Part shown: positions 1-52,430 of the stretch, piece after piece
Layout of the letters: each line of letters starts with the position of its first letter
Position numbering within the stretch: the stretch's first letter is position 1
Source of the DNA: Sialis fuliginosa
Taxonomy: Eukaryota; Arthropoda; Insecta; Megaloptera; Sialidae
DNA: 64,000 nt
Direction: 5' to 3'
Assembly: GCA_961205875.1 (NCBI GenBank)
Contig: OY540822.1
Span: forward strand, 11,162,501 to 11,226,500
Program-made: the position numbers and the translations under genes
Notes under the pieces: generated by a model
The model's database searches: none
What the model was told of the DNA's origin: nothing
Seen by the model: only the letters and a program-made list of their open reading frames with translations

Positions 1-375
1 GACACCTAGACAAGATTACTTATCGTGTTTATCTAGCTTAAGGCCCGTTGACGTATAAAATATCAAAAGTCTGCCTGGCATCGGTACACAACAACCCCGA
101 CCTACCACAGGAGAGGGTAATTTTGGGGCAGCGGGCCACGGGCGACGTTTTTTGCAATAATTCGCGCACTAAACAGGGCCCAACAACAAACACTGTCCGA
201 TAACGGGTCTTCCAAACCCTAAACTAACAGACAGGGTTCGTCGGCGAGCCGGAAATCATTAACTCGGATGAATCGCCCAACATAACGCACCCCCCAAATA
301 CCAAAATTCAATTCGTAAGTCACAAAACAGATTTCATTTCTTTCAACTTATCCGTTTGGTGGAATACGATACACT

Positions 376-409
376 TATAAATACACTCGCATTTATTCGT
401 TCGTCATTC
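376..409 (+). promoter_or_regulatory. Candidate Pol II core promoter, array copy 1
   Basis: A TATAAATA box at 376-383 is followed by TCATTC at 404-409, which resembles an arthropod initiator. Its A (406) lies 30 bp from the first T of the TATA box, the canonical spacing. It sits 53 bp upstream of the small ORF and is identical in the other two copies. Transcription is inferred, not shown. Confidence 0.5.
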
Positions 410-412
410 GCT

Positions 413-448
413 AGCGGTAGGACTCCTGCGGGAGCTCCTAGGACCGCT
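413..448 (+). other. GC-rich hairpin between promoter and small ORF
   Basis: Arms AGCGGTAGGACTCC and GGAGCTCCTAGGACCGCT pair around a TGCG loop with small bulges. If transcription starts near 406, the hairpin would form the first stem of the transcript. It recurs unchanged at 4134-4169 and 7856-7891. Confidence 0.6.
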
Positions 449-458
449 CAGGGTTGGG

Positions 459-659
459 ATGAAACGTTGGACCAGGTACAATACTAGACACACTTTGTAT
501 AAACCACGAACCATAGGTTCAATGTGGTTTAACGTAAAAAATAACCGACCTTTAGGGCGCTATCCCACCCTGATGTTTGAACTCGATTACTGCACAGCAA
601 CTCGCTCCACCAGCTCCAAAATCTGCACAGGAAACGCCACCATAACTTGCGCCAACTAA
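459..659 (+). CDS. Small basic ORF (66 aa) of the array unit, copy 1
   Basis: I do not recognise this protein. The ORF is short, rich in Arg, Lys, Thr and Ser with several Cys, and has no obvious signal peptide or membrane span. Support for it being real is positional: a well-spaced TATA/initiator and hairpin lie just upstream, and an AATAAA follows at 705-710, giving a predicted transcript of about 320 nt. It is open in all three copies. Against copy 2 it differs at eight bases, all within 497-634; four change the residue (Y to C, N to K, G to R, N to I) and four are silent. That ratio does not show purifying selection, so a non-coding RNA is equally possible. Confidence 0.3.
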   Translation: MKRWTRYNTRHTLYKPRTIGSMWFNVKNNRPLGRYPTLMFELDYCTATRSTSSKICTGNATITCAN

Positions 660-704
660 TTACAAAACAAATTATTAATTGTTTTTCTTGTACACATACC
701 ATAT

Positions 705-710
705 AATAAA
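705..710 (+). terminator. Candidate poly(A) signal of the array unit
   Basis: AATAAA lies 46 bp after the stop codon of the small ORF and recurs at 4426-4431 and 8148-8153. It completes a compact promoter-ORF-poly(A) arrangement. In AT-rich DNA the hexamer is common, so alone it is weak evidence. Confidence 0.35.
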
Positions 711-988
711 ATTACCTTTAAGTTTCGAGTTTGGGCGCAGCTGCTACACTGTATGTAGCTTCGTGTGCTGATATATGTTTAACAATCGCCATATTATCTA
801 CGTAAATACAAAATTAATTAATATAAAGCGTTTTAATTTTAAAATATAACAAGGTATATATTATACAAATTTTGGTTTTCAATAAAATGGTACAGAAATG
901 CATGTAGTGCAATTAGAAAAATAATTACATTAATATAATATTGCATTGTTGTTATATTTAAGAATATGTAAAATGGCGGTTTCAATAT

Positions 989-1034
989 CTTGTCCAAACA
1001 GGTATAAAAATTTTTTCATACCTTTTTGGACAAG
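989..1034. repeat. Imperfect hairpin inside the array unit
   Basis: CTTGTCCAAACAGGTAT (989-1005) and ATACCTTTTTGGACAAG (1018-1034) are inverted copies matching at 15 of 17 positions around a 12-base AT loop. It is kept in copies 2 and 3. It could be a small transposon remnant or RNA hairpin. Confidence 0.6.
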
Positions 1035-1591
1035 AATTCATTATTAGATGGTTGTTACATGATTTTCTATTTTCTTATGAAAAAAAAGCAAATATTATTT
1101 TTTTTACCTCTGAAAACTTTTAATTGTTGCTAAATAAACATTTGATTTAATTTTGTGCAGAGACATTGTCTCTTCTTTAAAAACACGTAAACTAATAATG
1201 GCGGGTTTTTATTTGACAATGGAAAAAAATTTCTTACCATAATTTCATCTTTTGTATTAAAAAAAATGAAATCACACTATTCCACTATTGTAAAAATAAT
1301 CTATTTTCTTTCCGAATTATTTTTTTACTACAGAAAACACTCTATTGTTGTTAATTTACTACGAAATTTAATTTTAAACGGTGATATTGTTACACTTTCG
1401 AATAAAATTTTAACAATGGTGGTCTGACCATAGACTACACACTACATAAGACGATCCAATAAGTTTATGTTTTATATTGTATCTATGCTGTTAGAAAAAG
1501 AAGGCTATATGTTTTGATAAAGGAGTCGTATTTAACCTATAAAAAAATTAGTTTACAAATAAAAGAAATTATTGTCAATTCGTTTTGAAGA

Positions 1592-2102
1592 ATGTCCTTT
1601 GACCCTTTAGCTAATGACGATGGAAGTCCCCGAAAACTATACAATAGTCAGTTATAAAACAAAAATCAAATGTAAGTCAGTGTCAAATTAATGAAATCAT
1701 TGCTTTAATGACGAAAAAACTAGATGTATTAGTGCCTGAATAATAATTTATAATTTCCTACAATATTAAGTCAGTAAATCCTTGGTCAAGTAGTTTCATT
1801 CAAATTTTTTTTAATTTAGATCCGAGGCGTCGTGATGTGCCGCTAAAGAAAATGGTTGATCGTGAAAGAGAGGAAACCTATATCGTCTATGCGTGATCTT
1901 ATAAAGTCTTGACTTCAATATTTATTGTCAAGTAGACTTTGTTTGGCTTTACGTATTCAATGTGATGTAATAAATTGTAGTTGTCTAGTACGACAGAGAT
2001 AACAAGAATCTCTAACATAAAAGATATACAATATTTACCCCTTGATAATATTAGCGCAGAAGGGCAAACCCACCGATGTGGTCTACAAGGAGGTGCTAAA
2101 CG
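1592..2102 (+). other. Exon-like segments in the array unit (possible gene fragment)
   Basis: Three short stretches read like coding exons with splice-like borders. A, 1592-1646, starts ATG TCC TTT GAC and ends before GTCAGT. B, 1820-1884, follows a pyrimidine-rich run ending ATTTAG and encodes an Arg/Lys/Glu-rich peptide. C, 2060-2102, follows GCGCAG and ends at a good donor, GTGAGG. Frames are compatible if B uses the GT at 1885. The segments are unchanged in copy 2. In partial copy 3, A stays open but B is degenerate. I do not recognise the protein. This may be a captured gene fragment or chance. Confidence 0.25.
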
Positions 2103-3476
2103 GTGAGGACTTTTATTTTTTTAATTGTGACTGGTCTCTCCCACTACCCGTCTGTCAGTTGATACGTTCTGTTAGAACTCGAGAGCTGCTAATACGATTT
2201 TTGTCTTCATAGAGTCTTCAAGTTACAACAGTATAACAAACATAAAAAATCTTACGCTGCAAGGTCGTTAGCATGTAATCACGTTATATGTAGCTTGTAA
2301 AAGATTTTAATTTTGTATGCATCAGTTTTAACAAACTTTAAATAGAAAAAATAATAATAATTCACGGCAAACCAACAACATTACAGGAACTCGAATCCTG
2401 CTGTAAATGTAATTAATTGTATTTTCATTATTTCCAAAAATAAATGTAGGTCTGGTTATTAAAAAATTATAAAAAGAAAACTTTGATATTTAGTCGTGTT
2501 TAAAATAGTTGTCTAATTCTGCTGGAAAACAGGATCTGAAACATATAAAGAATTAATTGTTAAGCCGGTATATCTCGGCTTTATGTATTCAAAATGATGT
2601 GAATAATTAAAAAAAAGTTGAACCCATGACACTTGGGATAGAAAAAAGTGGTTAGTTTTATCTGAGAAATTATCAAATATTAAAACATTAACAATATGAA
2701 TTACCAACATTTAACTGGCTTGCCATTCTGTAAAATATTAATATCCGCTTATAAAATATATTTTTTTTTTATAATTTGTATTGTTTTTATCTTCTGCATT
2801 CGTTTCATTTTTTTTTATTTATATTATTTACAACTTCTTCGTTTTTTTTTTATATCTATAAAATTTATATTTTTTTACACTTACTGAAAAACACATAAAA
2901 TATAAATACATGCTCTCTCTCTAGAATTGACGCGAAACTTAAAATATATTTTGACAAAAGAAAACTAAGCGATCATAGATTACTGAATTTCCTTTTCTAT
3001 TTAATAAATTGTACACATAAAATAATATATACATATATATAAAGAGGGGGGAAACCTAACAGAATCTGAAAAATAAAAAAAGTATTAAAACTTATAAACT
3101 AAATAAGTACTCATCTCTGACATACATCAACACCGGCTGAAGAGAGAGCAACTTCGCAATAAGTGTGTTTTTCTGTACCTGTTCTGGAAAATGTAACCCC
3201 AAAGGTAACGCGATATTTTCATTAATAAAATCAAAAATTATTTAACTGAATGTTAATGTAAATTTAAAGTGATAATTATTTGAAAATGTATAGAAACAAA
3301 ACCCTTTTAGTTTAAAAAAAAATTAATAAAATATTAAGACAATAATCAAAATAACAATTAGTTATAAATCCCTCGATGCCGCCGTGTCTGGAAAACGACA
3401 CAGCAGTCCTTCCTTAAAGGAACCTAGAAACCTGAAATATAAAGATACATATATTGTGTTGTGTAGGGTGGATGTG

Positions 3477-3565
3477 ACGTCTAACAGCCTCTGTGCAATG
3501 GTAGTTAGACGTGGTGTGGGAGTGTGACGCCTAACAGCCCCCCTGCATGTTGTTAGGCGTGACAC
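3477..3565. repeat. Two related hairpins side by side
   Basis: ACGTCTAAC (3477-3485) pairs with GTTAGACGT (3504-3512). GTGACGCCTAACA (3524-3536) pairs with TGTTAGGCGTGAC (3551-3563) with one mismatch. The two stems share the TGACGYCTAACAGC core, so one probably arose by duplicating the other. The pair recurs in copy 2 (about 7199-7287). It lies about 620 bp upstream of the TATA box of the next unit. Confidence 0.6.
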
Positions 3566-4096
3566 ACATTGTCAATGTAACCTACTGGTGCTGCCGAGAC
3601 GCTCAAAGCAGACATCGCCTAAGACCTTCTCCGGCTAAAATAAGCAGATAACTGTCTTTTCGCTAGTACCTTCCGGCAATACAATCACTCTATATCATAT
3701 TTTAGTGAAATATCGCTTAAGGACACCTAGACAAGATTACTTATCGTGTTTATCTAGCTTAAGGCCCGTTGACGTATAAAATATCAAAAGTCTGCCTGGC
3801 ATCGGTACACAACAACCCCGACCTACCACAGGAGAGGGTAATTTTGGGGCAGCGGGCCACGGGCGACGTTTTTTGCAATAATTCGCGCACTAAACAGGGC
3901 CCAACAACAAACACTGTCCGATAACGGGTCTTCCAAACCCTAAACTAACAGACAGGGTTCGTCGGCGAGCCGGAAATCATTAACTCGGATGAATCGCCCA
4001 ACATAACGCACCCCCCAAATACCAAAATTCAATTCGTAAGTCACAAAACAGATTTCATTTCTTTCAACTTATCCGTTTGGTGGAATACGATACACT

Positions 4097-4130
4097 TATA
4101 AATACACTCGCATTTATTCGTTCGTCATTC
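4097..4130 (+). promoter_or_regulatory. Candidate Pol II core promoter, array copy 2
   Basis: This is the same TATAAATA box (4097-4104) and TCATTC initiator arrangement as copy 1. The whole 458 bp from the unit start to the ATG is identical between copies 1 and 2. Confidence 0.5.
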
Positions 4131-4179
4131 GCTAGCGGTAGGACTCCTGCGGGAGCTCCTAGGACCGCTCAGGGTTGGG

Positions 4180-4380
4180 ATGAAACGTTGGACCAGGTAC
4201 AATACTAGACACACTTTATGTAAACCACGAACAATAGGTTCAATGTGGTTTAAAGTAAAAAATAACCGACCTTTAGGGCGCTATCCCACCCTGATGTTCG
4301 AACTCGATTACTGCACAGCAACTCGCTCCACCAGTTCCAAAATCTGCACAAGAATCGCCACCATAACTTGCGCCAACTAA
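4180..4380 (+). CDS. Small basic ORF (66 aa), array copy 2
   Basis: This is the copy-2 version of the ORF at 459-659, with the same start, length and stop. It has Cys, Lys, Arg and Ile where copy 1 has Tyr, Asn, Gly and Asn. It differs from copy 3 by one residue (Pro to His). Function is not recognised and coding status is unproven. Confidence 0.3.
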   Translation: MKRWTRYNTRHTLCKPRTIGSMWFKVKNNRPLGRYPTLMFELDYCTATRSTSSKICTRIATITCAN

Positions 4381-7300
4381 TTACAAAACAAATTATTAAT
4401 TGTTTTTCTTGTACACATATCATATAATAAAATTACCTTTAAGTTTCGAGTTTGGGCGCAGCTGCTACACTGTATGTAGCTTCGTGTGCTGATATATGTT
4501 TAACAATCGCCATATTATCTACGTAAATACAAAATTAATTAATATAAAGCGTTTTAATTTTAAAATATAACAAGGTATATATTATACAAATTTTGGTTTT
4601 CAATAAAATGGTACAGAAATGCATGTAGTGCAATTAGAAAAATAATTACATTAATATAATATTGCATTGTTGTTATATTTAAGAATATGTAAAATGGCGG
4701 TTTCAATATCTTGTCCAAACAGGTATAAAATTTTTTTCATACCTTTTTGGACAAGAATTCATTATTAGATGGTTGTTACATGATTTTCTATTTTCTTATG
4801 AAAAAAAAAGCAAATATTATTTTTTTTACCTCTGAAAACTTTTAATTGTTGCTAAATAAACATTTGATTTAATTTTGTGCAGAGACATTGTCTCTTCTTT
4901 AAAAACACGTAAACTAATAATGGCGGGTTTTTATTTGACAATGGAAAAAAATTTCTTACCATAATTTCATCTTTTGTATTAAAAAAAATGAAATCACACT
5001 ATTCCACTATTGTAAAAATAATCTATTTTCTTTCCGAATTATTTTTTTACTACAGAAAACACTCTATTGTTGTTAATTTACTACGAAATTTAATTTTAAA
5101 CGGTGATATTGTTACACTTTCGAATAAAATTTTAACAATGGTGGTCTGACCATAGACTACACACTACATAAGACGATCCAATAAGTTTATGTTTTATATT
5201 GTATCTATGCTGTTAGAAAAAGAAGGCTATATGTTTTGATAAAGGAGTCGTATTTAACCTATAAAAAAATTAGTTTACAAATAAAAGAAATTATTGTCAA
5301 TTCGTTTTGAAGAATGTCCTTTGACCCTTTAGCTAATGACGATGGAAGTCCCCGAAAACTATACAATAGTCAGTTATAAAACAAAAATCAAATGTAAGTC
5401 AGTGTCAAATTAATGAAATCATTGCTTTAATGACGAAAAAACTAGATGTATTAGTGCCTGAATAATAATTTATAATTTCCTACAATATTAAGTCAGTAAA
5501 TCCTTGGTCAAGTAGTTTCATTAAAATTTTTTTTAATTTAGATCCGAGGCGTCGTGATGTGCCGCTAAAGAAAATGGTTGATCGTGAAAGAGAGGAAACC
5601 TATATCGTCTATGCGTGATCTTATAAAGTCTTGACTTCAATATTTATTGTCAAGTAGACTTTGTTTGGCTTTACGTATTCAATGTGATGTAACAAATTGT
5701 AGTTGTCTAGTACGACAGAGATAACAAGAATCTCTAACATAAAAGATATACAATATTTACCCCTTGATAATATTAGCGCAGAAGGGCAAACCCACCGATG
5801 TGGTCTACAAGGAGGTGCTAAACGGTGAGGACTTTTATTTTTTTAATTGTGACTGGTCTCTCCCACTACCCGTCTGTCAGTTGATACGTTCTGTTAGAAC
5901 TCGAGAGCTGCTAATACGATTTTTGTCTTCATAGAGTCTTCAAGTTACAACAGTATAACAAACATAAAAAATCTTACGCTGCAAGGTCGTTAGCATGTAA
6001 TCACGTTATATGTAGCTTGTAAAAGATTTTAATTTTGTATGCATCAGTTTTAACAAACTTTAAATAGAAAAAATAATAATAATTCACGGCAAACCAACTA
6101 CATTACAGGAACTCGAATCCTGCTGTAAATGTAATTAATCGTATTTTCATTATTTCCAAAAATAAATGTAGGTCTGGTTATTAAAAAATTATAAAAAGAA
6201 AACTTTGATATTTAGTCGTGTTTAAAATAGTTGTCTAATTCTGCTGGAAAACAGGATCTGAAACATTTAAAGAATTAATTGTTAAGCCGGTATATCTCGG
6301 CTTTATGTATTCAAAATGATGTGAATAATTAAAAAAAAGTTGAACCCATGACACTTGGGATAGAAAAAAGTGGTTAGTTTTATCTGAGAAATTATCAAAT
6401 ATTAAAACATTAACAATATGAATTACCAACATTTAACTGGCTTGCCATTCTGTAAAATATTAATATCCGCTTATAAAATATATTTTTTTTTTATAATTTG
6501 TATTGTTTTTATCTTCTGCATTCGTTTCATTTTTTTTTATTTATATTATTTACAACTTCTTCGTTTTTTTTTTATATCTATAAAATTTATATTTTTTTAC
6601 ACTTACTGAAAAACACATAAAATATAAATACATGCTCTCTCTCTAGAATTGACGCGAAACTTAAAATATATTTTGACAAAAGAAAACTAAGCGATCATAG
6701 ATTACTGAATTTCCTTTTCTATTTAATAAATTGTACACATAAAATAATATATACATATATATAAAGAGGGGGGAAACCTAACAGAATCTGAAAAATAAAA
6801 AAAGTATTAAAACTTATAAACTAAATAAGTACTCATCTCTGACATACATCAACACCGGCTAAAGAGAGAGCAACTTCGCAATAAGTGTGTTTTTCTGTAC
6901 CTGTTCTGGAAAATGTAACCCCAAAGGTAACGCGATATTTTCATTAATAAAATCAAAAATTATTTAACTGAATGTTAATGTAAATTTAAAGTGATAATTA
7001 TTTGAAAATGTATAGAAACAAAACCCTTTTAGTTTAAAAAAAAATTAATAAAATATTAAGACAATAATCAAAATAACAATTAGTTATAAATCCCTCGATG
7101 CCGCCGTGTCTGGAAAACGACACAGCAGTCCTTCCTTAAAGGAACCTAGAAACCTGAAATATAAAGATACATATATTGTGTTGTGTAGGGTGGATGTGAC
7201 GTCTAACAGCCTCTGTGCAATGGTAGTTAGACGTGGCGTGGGAGTGTGACGCCTAACAGCCCCCCTGCATGTTGTTAGGCGTGACACACATTGTCAATGT

Positions 7301-7818
7301 AACCTACTGGTGCTGCCGAGACGCTCAAAGCAGACATCGCCTAAGACCTTCTCCGGCTAAAATAAGCAGATAACTGTCTTTTCGCTAGTACCTTCCGGCA
7401 ATACAATCACTCTATATCATATTTTAGTGAAATATCGCTTAAGGACACCTAGACAAGATTACTTATCGTGTTTATCTAGCTTAAGGCCCGTTGACGTATA
7501 AAATATCAAAAGTCTGCCTGGCATCGGTACACAACAACCCCGACCTACCACAGGAGAGGGTAATTTTGGGGCAGCGGGCCACGGGCGACGTTTTTTGCAA
7601 TAATTCGCGCACTAAACAGGGCCCAACAACAAACACTGTCCGATAACGGGTCTTCCAAACCCTAAACTAACAGACAGGGTTCGTCGGCGAGCCGGAAATC
7701 ATTAACTCGGATGAATCGCCCAACATAACGCATCCCCCAAATACCAAAATTCAATTCGTAAGTCACAAAACAGATTTCATTTCTTTCAACTTATCCGTTT
7801 GGTGGAATACGATACACT

Positions 7819-7852
7819 TATAAATACACTCGCATTTATTCGTTCGTCATTC
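7819..7852 (+). promoter_or_regulatory. Candidate Pol II core promoter, array copy 3
   Basis: The third copy keeps the TATAAATA box (7819-7826) and initiator. Nearby differences are one C to T about 85 bp upstream and one G to A two bases before the ATG of the small ORF. Confidence 0.5.
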
Positions 7853-7901
7853 GCTAGCGGTAGGACTCCTGCGGGAGCTCCTAGGACCGCTCAGGGTTGA
7901 G

Positions 7902-8102
7902 ATGAAACGTTGGACCAGGTACAATACTAGACACACTTTATGTAAACCACGAACAATAGGTTCAATGTGGTTTAAAGTAAAAAATAACCGACCTTTAGGG
8001 CGCTATCACACCCTGATGTTCGAACTCGATTACTGCACAGCAACTCGCTCCACCAGTTCCAAAATCTGCACAAGAATCGCCACCATAACTTGCGCCAACT
8101 AA
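7902..8102 (+). CDS. Small basic ORF (66 aa), array copy 3
   Basis: This is the copy-3 version of the ORF at 459-659. It is open and full length, and has His where copy 2 has Pro. The poly(A) signal follows at 8148-8153. Function is not recognised. Confidence 0.3.
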   Translation: MKRWTRYNTRHTLCKPRTIGSMWFKVKNNRPLGRYHTLMFELDYCTATRSTSSKICTRIATITCAN

Positions 8103-8976
8103 TTACAAAACAAATTATTAATTGTTTTTCTTGTACACATACCATATAATAAAATTACCTTTAAGTTTCGAGTTTGGGCGCAGCTGCTACACTGTATGTA
8201 GCTTCGTGTGCTGATATATGTTTAACAATCGCCATATTATCTACGTAAATACAAAATTAATTAATATAAAGCGTTTTAATTTTAAAATATAACAAGGTAT
8301 ATATTATACAAATTTTGGTTTTCAATAAAATGGTACAGAAATGCATGTAGTGCAATTAGAAAAATAATTACATTAATATAATATTGCATTGTTGTTATAT
8401 TTAAGAATATGTAAAATGGCGGTTTCAATATCTTGTCCAAACAGGTATAAAATTTTTTTCATACCTTTTTGGACAAGAATTCATTATTAGATGGTTGTTA
8501 CATGATTTTCTATTTTCTTATGAAAAAAAAAGCAAATATTATTTTTTTTACCTCTGAAAACTTTTAATTGTTGCTAAATAAACATTTGATTTAATTTTGT
8601 GCAGAGACATTGTCTCTTCTTTAAAAACACGTAAACTAATAATGGCGGGTTTTTATTTGACAATGGAAAAAAATTTCTTACCATAATTTCATCTTTTGTA
8701 TTAAAAAAAATGAAATCACACTATTCCACTATTGTAAAAATAATCTATTTTCTTTCCGAATTATTTTTTTACTACAGAAAACACTCTATTGTTGTTAATT
8801 TACTACGAAATTTAATTTTAAACGGTGATATTGTTACACTTTCGAATAAAATTTTAACAATGGTGGTCTGACCATAGACTACACACTACATAAGACGATC
8901 CAATAAGTTTATGTTTTATATTGTATCTATGCTGTTAGAAAAAGAAGGCTATATGTTTTGATAAAGGAGTCGTATT

Positions 8977-9430
8977 TAATCTGTAAAAAAATGATTTTAC
9001 AAATACAAGAAATTATTGGCAAATATTTTTGAAGAATGTCCTTTAACCCTTTAGCTAATGACGATGGAAGTCCCCGAAAACTATACAATAGTCAGTTATA
9101 AAACAAAAATCAAATTTAAGACAGTGTCAAATTAATGAAATCATTATTGCTTTAATGACGAAAAAACTAGATGTATTAGTGCCTGAATAAATAATTTATA
9201 ATTTCCTACAATATTAAGTCAGTAAATCCTTGGTCAAGTAGTTTCATTCAAATGTTTTTTATTTCAGATTCGAGGCCTTGTGACGTGCTGCCATAGAAAA
9301 CGATTTTACGAAATCATGAAATTTTTGTCAATAATTTTTGAAGAAAGTCCTTTAAACCTTTAGCTAATGACAATGGAAATCCCTGAAAACTATACAGTTG
9401 TACATAATAAAACAAAAAATCAAATGTAAT
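8977..9430. repeat. Decayed right edge of the array with a nested ~306 bp duplication
   Basis: From about 8977 similarity to the unit drops with many substitutions and small insertions, and ends near 9270. A second, more degraded copy of the exon-A neighbourhood appears about 306 bp downstream: 8994-9120 resembles 9300-9425. This older local duplication suggests the array grew from an ancestral single-copy region here. Confidence 0.7.
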
Positions 9431-36966: not shown

Positions 36967-36987
36967 TTAATTAAGTTGTACAGTATA

Positions 36988-40340: not shown

Positions 40341-40803
40341 AATTAAAATTGATAAATTAACAAATAAGTTGAATAGTTAATATCCCAACTTGGCGCGCTC
40401 CCACAGACTCCAACTTTTTTTTAAATATAGCTTACATTATTAACTTTAAGACTATTAAATGCCCTAAGACCGTCGAAACCCCCTTCCCTTATTATAAACA
40501 AATTAAAATTGATAAATAAATTAACAAATAAGTTGAATAGTTAATATCCCAGCTTGGCGCGCTCCCACAGACTCCAACTTTTTTTTTAAATATAGCTTAC
40601 ATTATTAACTTTAAGACTATCGAATACCCTAAGACCGTCGAGACCCCCTTCCCCTATAATTAACAAATAAGTTGAATAGTTAATATCCCAACTTGGCGCG
40701 ATCCTACAGACTCCATTTTTTTTAAATATAGCTTACATTATTTACTTTAAGACTTCAAATGCCCAAAGACCGTCGAGACCCCCTTACCCTATTATAAACA
40801 AAT
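40341..40803 (+). repeat. Tandem ~155 bp repeat, three units
   Basis: Units start near 40341, 40500 and 40656. Each carries AACAAATAAGTTGAATAGTT, TTGGCGCG, CAGACTCCA, ATATAGCTTACATTATT and AAGACCGTCGA. They differ by point changes and A/T-run lengths. Two further units lie at 46811-47035. Confidence 0.92.
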
Positions 40804-41600: not shown

Positions 41601-41866
41601 TATTAAATAAAAAAATTGGTGTGTGACTTTTCTAGCGTGCAATTGCGAAAGTAACAACCTGTTTTATCGACTATCATAACAGAAATTTGTATTACGTAAC
41701 CTGTATTATTGTTATTTTCTCAATATTACTTTAAGAGAACAAAATGTATTTATTTTTAATTTTGTTAAATGGAGATTTTAAAAATAACAGAACATATATT
41801 TAAATTCCTTAAATTTTCAGTTTTATTTGACTACACCAACTTTTTGGGGGTTACCTTTACTCATTT

Positions 41867-42395
41867 ACTATAACTATGCCAAATCTTAGCTTTCTAGGTC
41901 AAACGGTTCTATGACAGACAGACAGACAGACGTAATATTGTGTCCATAAGTATTAATTTTTCCAATTTTAGTGCAGAATACTAAAAATGCAAAAATGTTA
42001 ATATTAACGATTTTGTATATATTTTTTCGTTTACCTATTTACTACACTATGCCAAATTTTAGCTTTCTAGGTCAAACGGTTCTATGACAGACAAACGACA
42101 GACGTAATATTGTGTCCATAAGTATTAATTTTTCCAATTTTGATACAGAATACTAAAAATTCAAAAATGTTAATATTAACGATTTTGTATATTTTTTTCG
42201 TTTATCCATCCATTTACTATAACTATGCCAAATCTTAGCTTTCTAGGTCAAACGGTTCTGTGACAGACAGACGGACAGACGGACAGACGCAATATTGTTT
42301 CCATAAGTATTCATATTTCCAATTTAATACAGAATACTAAAAATGCAAAAATGTTAATATTAACGATTTTGTGTATTTTTTTCGTTTTATTCGTT
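41867..42395 (+). repeat. Tandem ~175 bp repeat, three units, with GACA tracts
   Basis: Units begin near 41867, 42041 and 42214. Each contains TTAGCTTTCTAGGTCAAACG, a variable (GACA)n tract, ATATTGTTTCCATAAGTATT-like sequence and TTAATATTAACGATTTTGT. The GACA tract and TTTCTAGGTCAAACG resemble LINE 3' ends, so this may be a tandemly expanded LINE tail. Confidence 0.9.
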
Positions 42396-51860: not shown

Positions 51861-51932
51861 CTGTGGAGCGTAGACTCTTTTAAATTGTTGTGAATGAGAT
51901 ATGAATATAGATGAATATTTGAATGAGAGAGT

Positions 51933-52430
51933 TGCATCCTATATCTAGTGTAATTTTATCAAAAAGGCACTCATTTCAGTTTCATTATCATATGTAGTAG
52001 TCGAGCACCACGAAAGCCGAGAGTTTACATTTTTTTGGGCAGTTGAGTAATTTCTTAAGACATATTTGAGTGAGAAAGTATCACGCATCCTATATCTAGT
52101 GTAATGTTATCAAAAAGGCACCCATTTCTGTTTCATAATAATATGTGATTATCATATGTATTAGTCGAGCACCACGGAAGCCTGAGAGTTTTGGGCAGTT
52201 GAGTAATTTCTTAAGACATATTTGAGTGAGAACGTCTCACCCTATATCTAGTGTAATTTTATCAAAAAGGCACCCATTTCATTTTGATTATCATATGTAT
52301 TAGTCGAACACCACGAAAGCCTGAGAGTTTACATTCTTTTTTGGGCAGTTGAGTAATTTCTTGAGACATATTTGAGTGAGAACGTCTCACCCTATATCCA
52401 GTGTAATGTTATCAAAAAGGCACCCCTTCT
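51933..52430 (+). repeat. Tandem ~150 bp repeat, about 3.3 units
   Basis: Units start near 51933, 52085, 52236 and 52385. Shared parts are CCTATATCTAGTGTAATTTT, ATCAAAAAGGCACYCATTTC, TCGAGCACCACGAAAGCC and GGGCAGTTGAGTAATTTCTT. The last unit is truncated. No relation to the other repeats was noticed. Confidence 0.92.

Follow-up and report, generated by a model that had tools for sequence, protein, structure and literature searches.

Concerted evolution of multi-copy RNA gene arrays is known mainly for housekeeping RNAs. In ribosomal DNA (rDNA), the units lie head to tail and combine a uniform core with subrepeated spacers and an exchange of variants, and the 5S and U snRNA genes also form multi-copy tandem clusters of noncoding RNA genes. 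Insect satellite DNA consists likewise of tandem repeats that undergo concerted evolution. The hsr-omega gene of flies is a spliced long noncoding RNA with tandem repeats nearby; it is a single locus, and its internal repeats are short.

Here we describe a tandem array of Sialis fuliginosa (Megaloptera) and its relatives elsewhere in the genome. These arrays share with rDNA the head-to-tail units, the uniform core, the subrepeated spacers and the exchange of variants; however, they have no Rfam match and are thus not ribosomal RNA, they are small (2 to 11 units) and are found on several chromosomes, and their core has a probable TATA promoter and acceptor-like sites. They differ from satellite DNA in their long units, ordered conserved blocks, covarying hairpins, promoter-like sites and few copies per array. 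Compared to the 5S and U snRNA clusters, which are tandem as well, the core is far longer (~1.15 kb) and has no Rfam match to those families. With hsr-omega the proposed RNA would share splicing and nearby tandem repeats; the Sialis family, in contrast, occupies multi-locus arrays. Searches of the open-access literature gave, among the matches listed, nothing on such arrays in Megaloptera.

The Array and Its Relatives on Chromosome 14

The window, i.e., the whole stretch of 64,000 nucleotides that was analyzed (C14:11162501-11226500 of the 392-Mb S. fuliginosa genome), opens inside a tandem array, the right-hand end of which occupies positions 1-9300. Units start at 1, 3722 and 7444: copy 1 (1-3721) is 3721 bp long, copy 2 (3722-7443) is 3722 bp long, and copy 3 is partial, running from 7444 to ~9300 and diverging past ~8979. 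At least eight further, shorter units lie to the left of the window, with starts from 11134930 to 11159038, and the 11 units of this array are arranged head-to-tail in a single orientation. Relatives on the same chromosome comprise at least three units at 14.68 Mb, at least four at 15.43 Mb and one copy at 16.68 Mb; the unit counts for the genome are lower bounds, as the search scored the best candidates. The assembly (ikSiaFuli1.1) is described as having 65-fold HiFi coverage and a consensus quality of 63.7 (PMC11549539).

Sequence matches of the spacers distinguish two stretches. The first (864-2281) belongs to the long chromosome 14 units. Copies 1 and 2 alone have it in full length; copy 3 and the 15.43-Mb array match it over long parts, and the matches elsewhere are short and scattered. 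The second (2282-2850) is recurrent: the units left of the window (type A, see below) and those of the other chromosome 14 arrays contain it once or several times each. Left of the array, at C14:11130725-11133623, a spacer segment of ~600 bp (unit 2432-3031) is repeated several times in a decayed form.

Clustered Differences and a Junction in Copy 1

The preliminary description had stated that bases 1-458 are identical in copies 1 and 2, and that eight differences, four of them residue-changing, follow within 497-634. Both statements are confirmed by the alignment: the identity in fact spans 1-496, and the substitutions between copies 1 and 2 (positions 497, 499, 512, 533, 578, 614, 630 and 634) comprise four replacement and four silent changes. 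It was also correct that few other changes separate the two copies, the exact figure being ten (nine substitutions and one indel) and not about a dozen. The clustering is not given by chance. When 18 differences were placed at random on 3721 bp, at least eight of them fell within 138 bp in four of 200,000 placements; for a span of 201 bp the figure was 48 of 200,000. Copy 3 has the letter of copy 2 at all eight patch sites; thus, copy 1 is the odd one out.

The letters of copy 1 were found again in the units to the left. At six sites (497, 499, 512, 614, 630 and 634) the copy 1 letter is present in every one of the eight left units; it is shared by six of the eight units at 578 and by one at 533. 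In the unit alignment the patch (497-634) is type A in copy 1 and type B in copies 2 and 3. We used 27 informative sites, at which copies 2 and 3 share a letter that at least seven of the eight left units lack. The left flank of copy 1 (~2725-3440, the coordinates being approximate owing to indels) is type A at 13 of 14 informative sites and the patch is type A at six of seven; together, 19 of the 21 sites up to 634 in copy 1 and this flank are type A. From 651 to 723, copy 1 is type B at all six informative sites. Copy 1 is thus a junction unit, in which type A changes to type B within 635-650, i.e., between the last A site (634) and the first B site (651).

Since the left flank and the patch are type A at nearly all informative sites and those from 651 onward are type B, a single junction at 635-650 is sufficient. 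The earlier proposal of a gene-conversion tract from a more diverged copy is therefore borne out in part: exchange between diverged units is the right kind of process, whereas an island inserted into copy 1 is not required by the data. It should be noted that a similar type switch, between 614 and 630, is present in the last unit of the 15.43-Mb array. The best match to the patch of copy 1 is in the leftmost unit, at 136 of 138 positions (134 of 138 for the adjacent unit), and copy 1 differs from its neighbors at 516 and ~2990, which together point to exchange beyond one junction.

The 66-Codon Open Reading Frame

The open reading frame (ORF) of 66 codons that surrounds the patch (459-659, plus strand) is incidental, as judged from shuffles, dN/dS and a survey of the frame. 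When the first 700 bp were shuffled, an ORF of at least 66 codons arose in 281 of 1000 cases; when the unit was shuffled, such an ORF arose in 117 of 200. The suggestion that the patch reflects diversifying selection on this ORF was not supported: dN/dS is 0.28, with four silent and four replacement changes (binomial p = 0.08). We examined the frame in 26 copies. The array of the window keeps 66 codons in 10 of 11 units, the frame being broken in the remaining one. In the other two arrays of chromosome 14, all seven copies have 63-69 codons, six of them through offsetting frame changes. Outside these three arrays, the frame ends after 13-29 codons in eight of eight copies. On the basis of these stops and of the dN/dS value, diversifying selection was rejected. 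The ORF translations of copies 2 and 3 are identical except at one residue, and Pfam returned nothing above the cut-off for the translations (copy 1 had one weak match, copy 2 had none). We also considered coding exons on both strands, and a frame-by-frame comparison in four pairs found no block that was clearly silent-biased; a 44-bp minus-strand stretch near 479, with three to five silent and two to four replacement changes in three pairs, is too short to weigh.

A Conserved Core on Several Chromosomes

Comparison of the units shows a core of ~1.15 kb, the sequence of which is conserved although the arrays have diverged and are spread over several chromosomes. The units form two clades, which have blocks in common despite heavy divergence elsewhere; for example, a 44-bp block (3366-3409) is nearly unchanged in distant units. 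A 21-base marker of the core was found at 51 places with at most two mismatches (43 exact, seven with one mismatch and one with two), and the reversed control had no matches. These places are mostly clusters on chromosomes 8, 10, 11, 12, 13 and 14, with one each on chromosomes 1, 4 and 6. The spacers of the chromosome 13 array contain self-matches ~212 bp apart.

The core is predicted to be a structured noncoding RNA gene on the minus strand, with a TATA-like promoter and at least two splice acceptors. The RNA body would extend over 3041-4191 (minus strand), from the promoter of copy 2 into the end of copy 1; its start is placed near 4191, and conservation was followed to ~3041. By analogy with copy 2, the promoter of copy 3 would give a body at 6763-7913 (minus strand). 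Rfam 15 had no match at the gathering score (SNORA20, mir-4680, IS009 and DUF3800-II were sub-threshold), a tRNA search found none, comparison to phage and viral contigs gave no match, and a telomerase-template motif was absent in the RNA sense.

Hairpins and the Favored Strand

The first structure is a long imperfect hairpin of 53 pairs (3586-3855, minus strand), in which, across 16 aligned copies, 98.6% of the cells are paired and seven of the 53 pairs are changed on both sides, a number reached by none of 500 shuffles. Slid versions of this hairpin have 40-46% of the cells paired; the further pair types are unexceptional (90 of 500 shuffles). The plus-strand model of the same hairpin has 98.1% of the cells paired and four double-changed pairs (30 of 500 shuffles). 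A second hairpin of 25 pairs (3886-3983, minus strand; 15 aligned copies) has 97.0% of the cells paired, a cell count reached by none of 500 shuffles, and three of its 25 pairs are changed on both sides, a count reached by 145 of 500 shuffles.

Alignment folds of two regions had z values of -6.6 and -6.25 on the minus strand versus -3.7 and -3.6 on the plus strand, and the fold of 3568-160 had -5.6 on the minus strand versus -2.7 on the plus strand. A third hairpin (4031-4097) can form on either strand, with some preference for the plus strand (z of -5.7 minus versus -9.7 plus). Five of seven single-sequence plus-strand folds had z between -1.4 and +0.8, and the other two were 3466-3570 (z of -2.7) and 975-1048 (z of -5.9). 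Generic helix counting gave plus-strand counts that were near those of six column shuffles, which covered that strand, and it was set aside. In these models, the minus strand is favored as the RNA sense of the hairpins. Alignment A5 was made without locus L047, which an insert lengthens to 936 bases; alignments A3, A5, A6 and A7 do not include the second L043 copy. The pair counts exclude the degraded C6 copy.

Two further structures were noted. Two adjoining hairpins at 3466-3570 occur in the units compared from chromosomes 14 and 4 and are absent in the other clade; they fall in a would-be intron. The long units also contain an inverted repeat of 23 bp around a 2-base loop (988-1035, 4709-4756 and 8431-8478). 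Its fold is much more stable than those of shuffled sequences (z of -5.9), and all of its Rfam matches were sub-threshold.

Promoter-Like and Acceptor-Like Sites

The fetched loci contain 42 copies of the motif GGTCCAACGTTT (RNA sense), and at a fixed distance from it we found candidate TATA boxes; for these counts, as for those of the acceptor-like sites below, copies within one array are non-independent. The canonical TATATAAAG is located 28 bases before GGTCCAACGTTT in 12 of the 42 copies. At that position TTATAAAG was found in two copies; the type A TATAC variant is present in ten (one of them with a 2-base deletion) and the type B ACATAAAG in two. Within the other clade (16 copies), eight copies have some tested TATA-like motif, in some cases at other distances, and the remaining eight have an AT-rich stretch only. 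The TATA-like box of copy 1, TATACAAAG in the RNA sense, is at 493-501 (minus strand), and the same position reads TACATAAAG in copy 2 (4214-4222, minus strand) and in copy 3 (7936-7944, minus strand). Patch differences 497 and 499 are thus inside the putative TATA box. A plus-strand TATAAATA at ~376 was considered as a promoter and rejected, because it is absent, together with ~21 bp beside it, from the other clade.

Two splice-acceptor-like sites are retained on the minus strand. At the first (3431-3438, ATTTCAGG in the RNA sense), GGACTGCTGTGTCG has TTCAGG or TTCCAGG at most 36 bases away on its 5' side in 41 of 41 copies. At the other (3066-3073, TTTTTCAG in the RNA sense), the second block is followed by TTTCAG in 36 of 39 copies; it is missing from two solitary copies and, in the window array, from the leftmost unit. 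No conserved donor (5' splice) site was established.

Probable Homogenization along the Unit

Between copy 2 (type B) and the type A unit that starts at 11159038, the block formed by 3441-3721 and 1-496 has one difference in 777 bases, and the other segments have 70. The same type A unit compared to the 16.68-Mb copy has 33 differences in the block versus 87 elsewhere (Fisher p = 8e-7), and compared to a chromosome 4 copy it has 67 versus 221 (Fisher p = 2e-6); these p values, which set the A/B numbers against those of each of the two copies, are a guide only, because sites are non-independent and single units were compared. Nearly all of the signal is supplied by 1-496 (0 versus 30). As the A/B difference in the block is below that expected from the divergence of the outgroups, constraint alone is insufficient, and exchange between units has probably homogenized this block.

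Diversity among the 11 units is consistent with such exchange. It is 0.0006 for 3441-3721 and 0.0034 for 1-466, both in the predicted body, and it reaches 0.020 in the putative promoter (467-500), 0.034 in 501-634, 0.033 in 635-725 and 0.061 in the spacer. An exception is the part of the predicted body at 3041-3440, which is unhomogenized (diversity of 0.046). With this exception, the arrays show the rDNA-like combination of a homogenized putative gene part and a variable spacer, and the spacers contain subrepeats.

Discussion

We propose, with a probability of roughly 0.7, that the patch is the visible part of a type junction beside an array of structured RNA genes that evolves in the manner of rDNA. 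The RNA gene would start near unit position 470 and run through position 1 into the end of the left-hand unit, with its promoter at unit 493-501 on the minus strand. Unequal crossing over and gene conversion would keep the RNA body alike, and the sequence upstream of the promoter and the spacers would drift, as in rDNA. The eight differences are clustered where they are because the homogenized body ends at ~497 and type A ends at ~640. The general implication is that differences densely clustered within an ORF can mark a junction between repeat types rather than selection.

The best reading of the core is a new multi-copy family of structured RNA genes, which we infer to be transcribed. The complete proposal, i.e., an undescribed family of structured, TATA-driven and probably spliced RNA genes with 51 marker places and rDNA-like concerted evolution, in which the patch is a point of exchange just upstream of a promoter, is tentative, and we place it slightly below even odds. 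If it is true, there would be gene copies with different TATA boxes and the same RNA body, and exchange tracts, promoter variants and RNA constraint could be read side by side in small arrays. It would also raise the question why an insect needs dozens of copies.

Other explanations of the patch were considered. A short gene-conversion tract from a type A unit into copy 1 would account for type A letters within an otherwise type B unit and for the best match being the leftmost unit, ~27 kb away, and not the neighbor; its left edge could be hidden in 3441-496, which has no informative sites. However, a second edge is unnecessary given that 13 of 14 sites in the left flank are type A, and we consider such a tract quite unlikely. 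Repeats are difficult to assemble, and an assembly error could in principle create a patch; it is very improbable, considering the HiFi coverage and consensus quality given in the assembly report, the agreement of the patch letters with the neighboring type (eight of eight units at six sites) and the similar junction in the 15.43-Mb array. Diversifying selection on the small ORF is hardly credible: although four replacements among eight changes in 201 bp and a frame open in 10 of 11 window-array units could be expected from it, dN/dS is low, the frame is broken in one unit of the same array and stops early in every copy outside the chromosome 14 arrays, there is no above-cut-off Pfam match, and a single residue separates copies 2 and 3.

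The nature of the core itself can be explained otherwise. A derivative of a mobile element, e.g., a non-coding retrotransposon with an RNA structure that serves the element itself, is suggested by dispersed single and degraded copies and by structured sequence after a promoter-like site. Nevertheless, most copies are in same-orientation arrays with subrepeated spacers, the array edges and solitary copies end at differing unit positions, and there is no long ORF; this origin is somewhat unlikely. It is also unlikely, to a slightly greater degree, that the array is a gene-free satellite, in which the conserved blocks would be DNA-level elements and the hairpins DNA palindromes. Such a satellite would be a tandem, species-level repeat, as observed, and some regions fold well on both strands, but the covariation includes G-U pairs, one strand is better in two of three regions, and the promoter-like and acceptor-like sites are kept in order. 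A structured RNA gene array with a type junction in copy 1 remains our preferred reading.

Other Features of the Window

The region from 12.2 to 32.4 kb contains ordinary-looking gene exons. They include exons of an SH2/ankyrin tyrosine kinase (the kinase domain being identified by Pfam), which we take to resemble Shark, exons of an SRP54-type GTPase, a ubiquitin hydrolase exon, and a C2H2 zinc-finger protein with weak zinc-finger matches just below the cut-off. A minus-strand gene in the same region is presumably thiolase/SCPx-like, and the one exon of it that was scanned had no Pfam match. From 36.9 to 64 kb, a dispersed repeat family of ~500 bp is present in both orientations, with copies roughly 67-95% alike (examples at 36987, 49147, 53100, 54045, 56698, 61535 and 63513). 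Short tandem arrays are located at 40352-40668, 41856-42387 and 51915-52425, with periods of 165, 172 and 150 bp, respectively.
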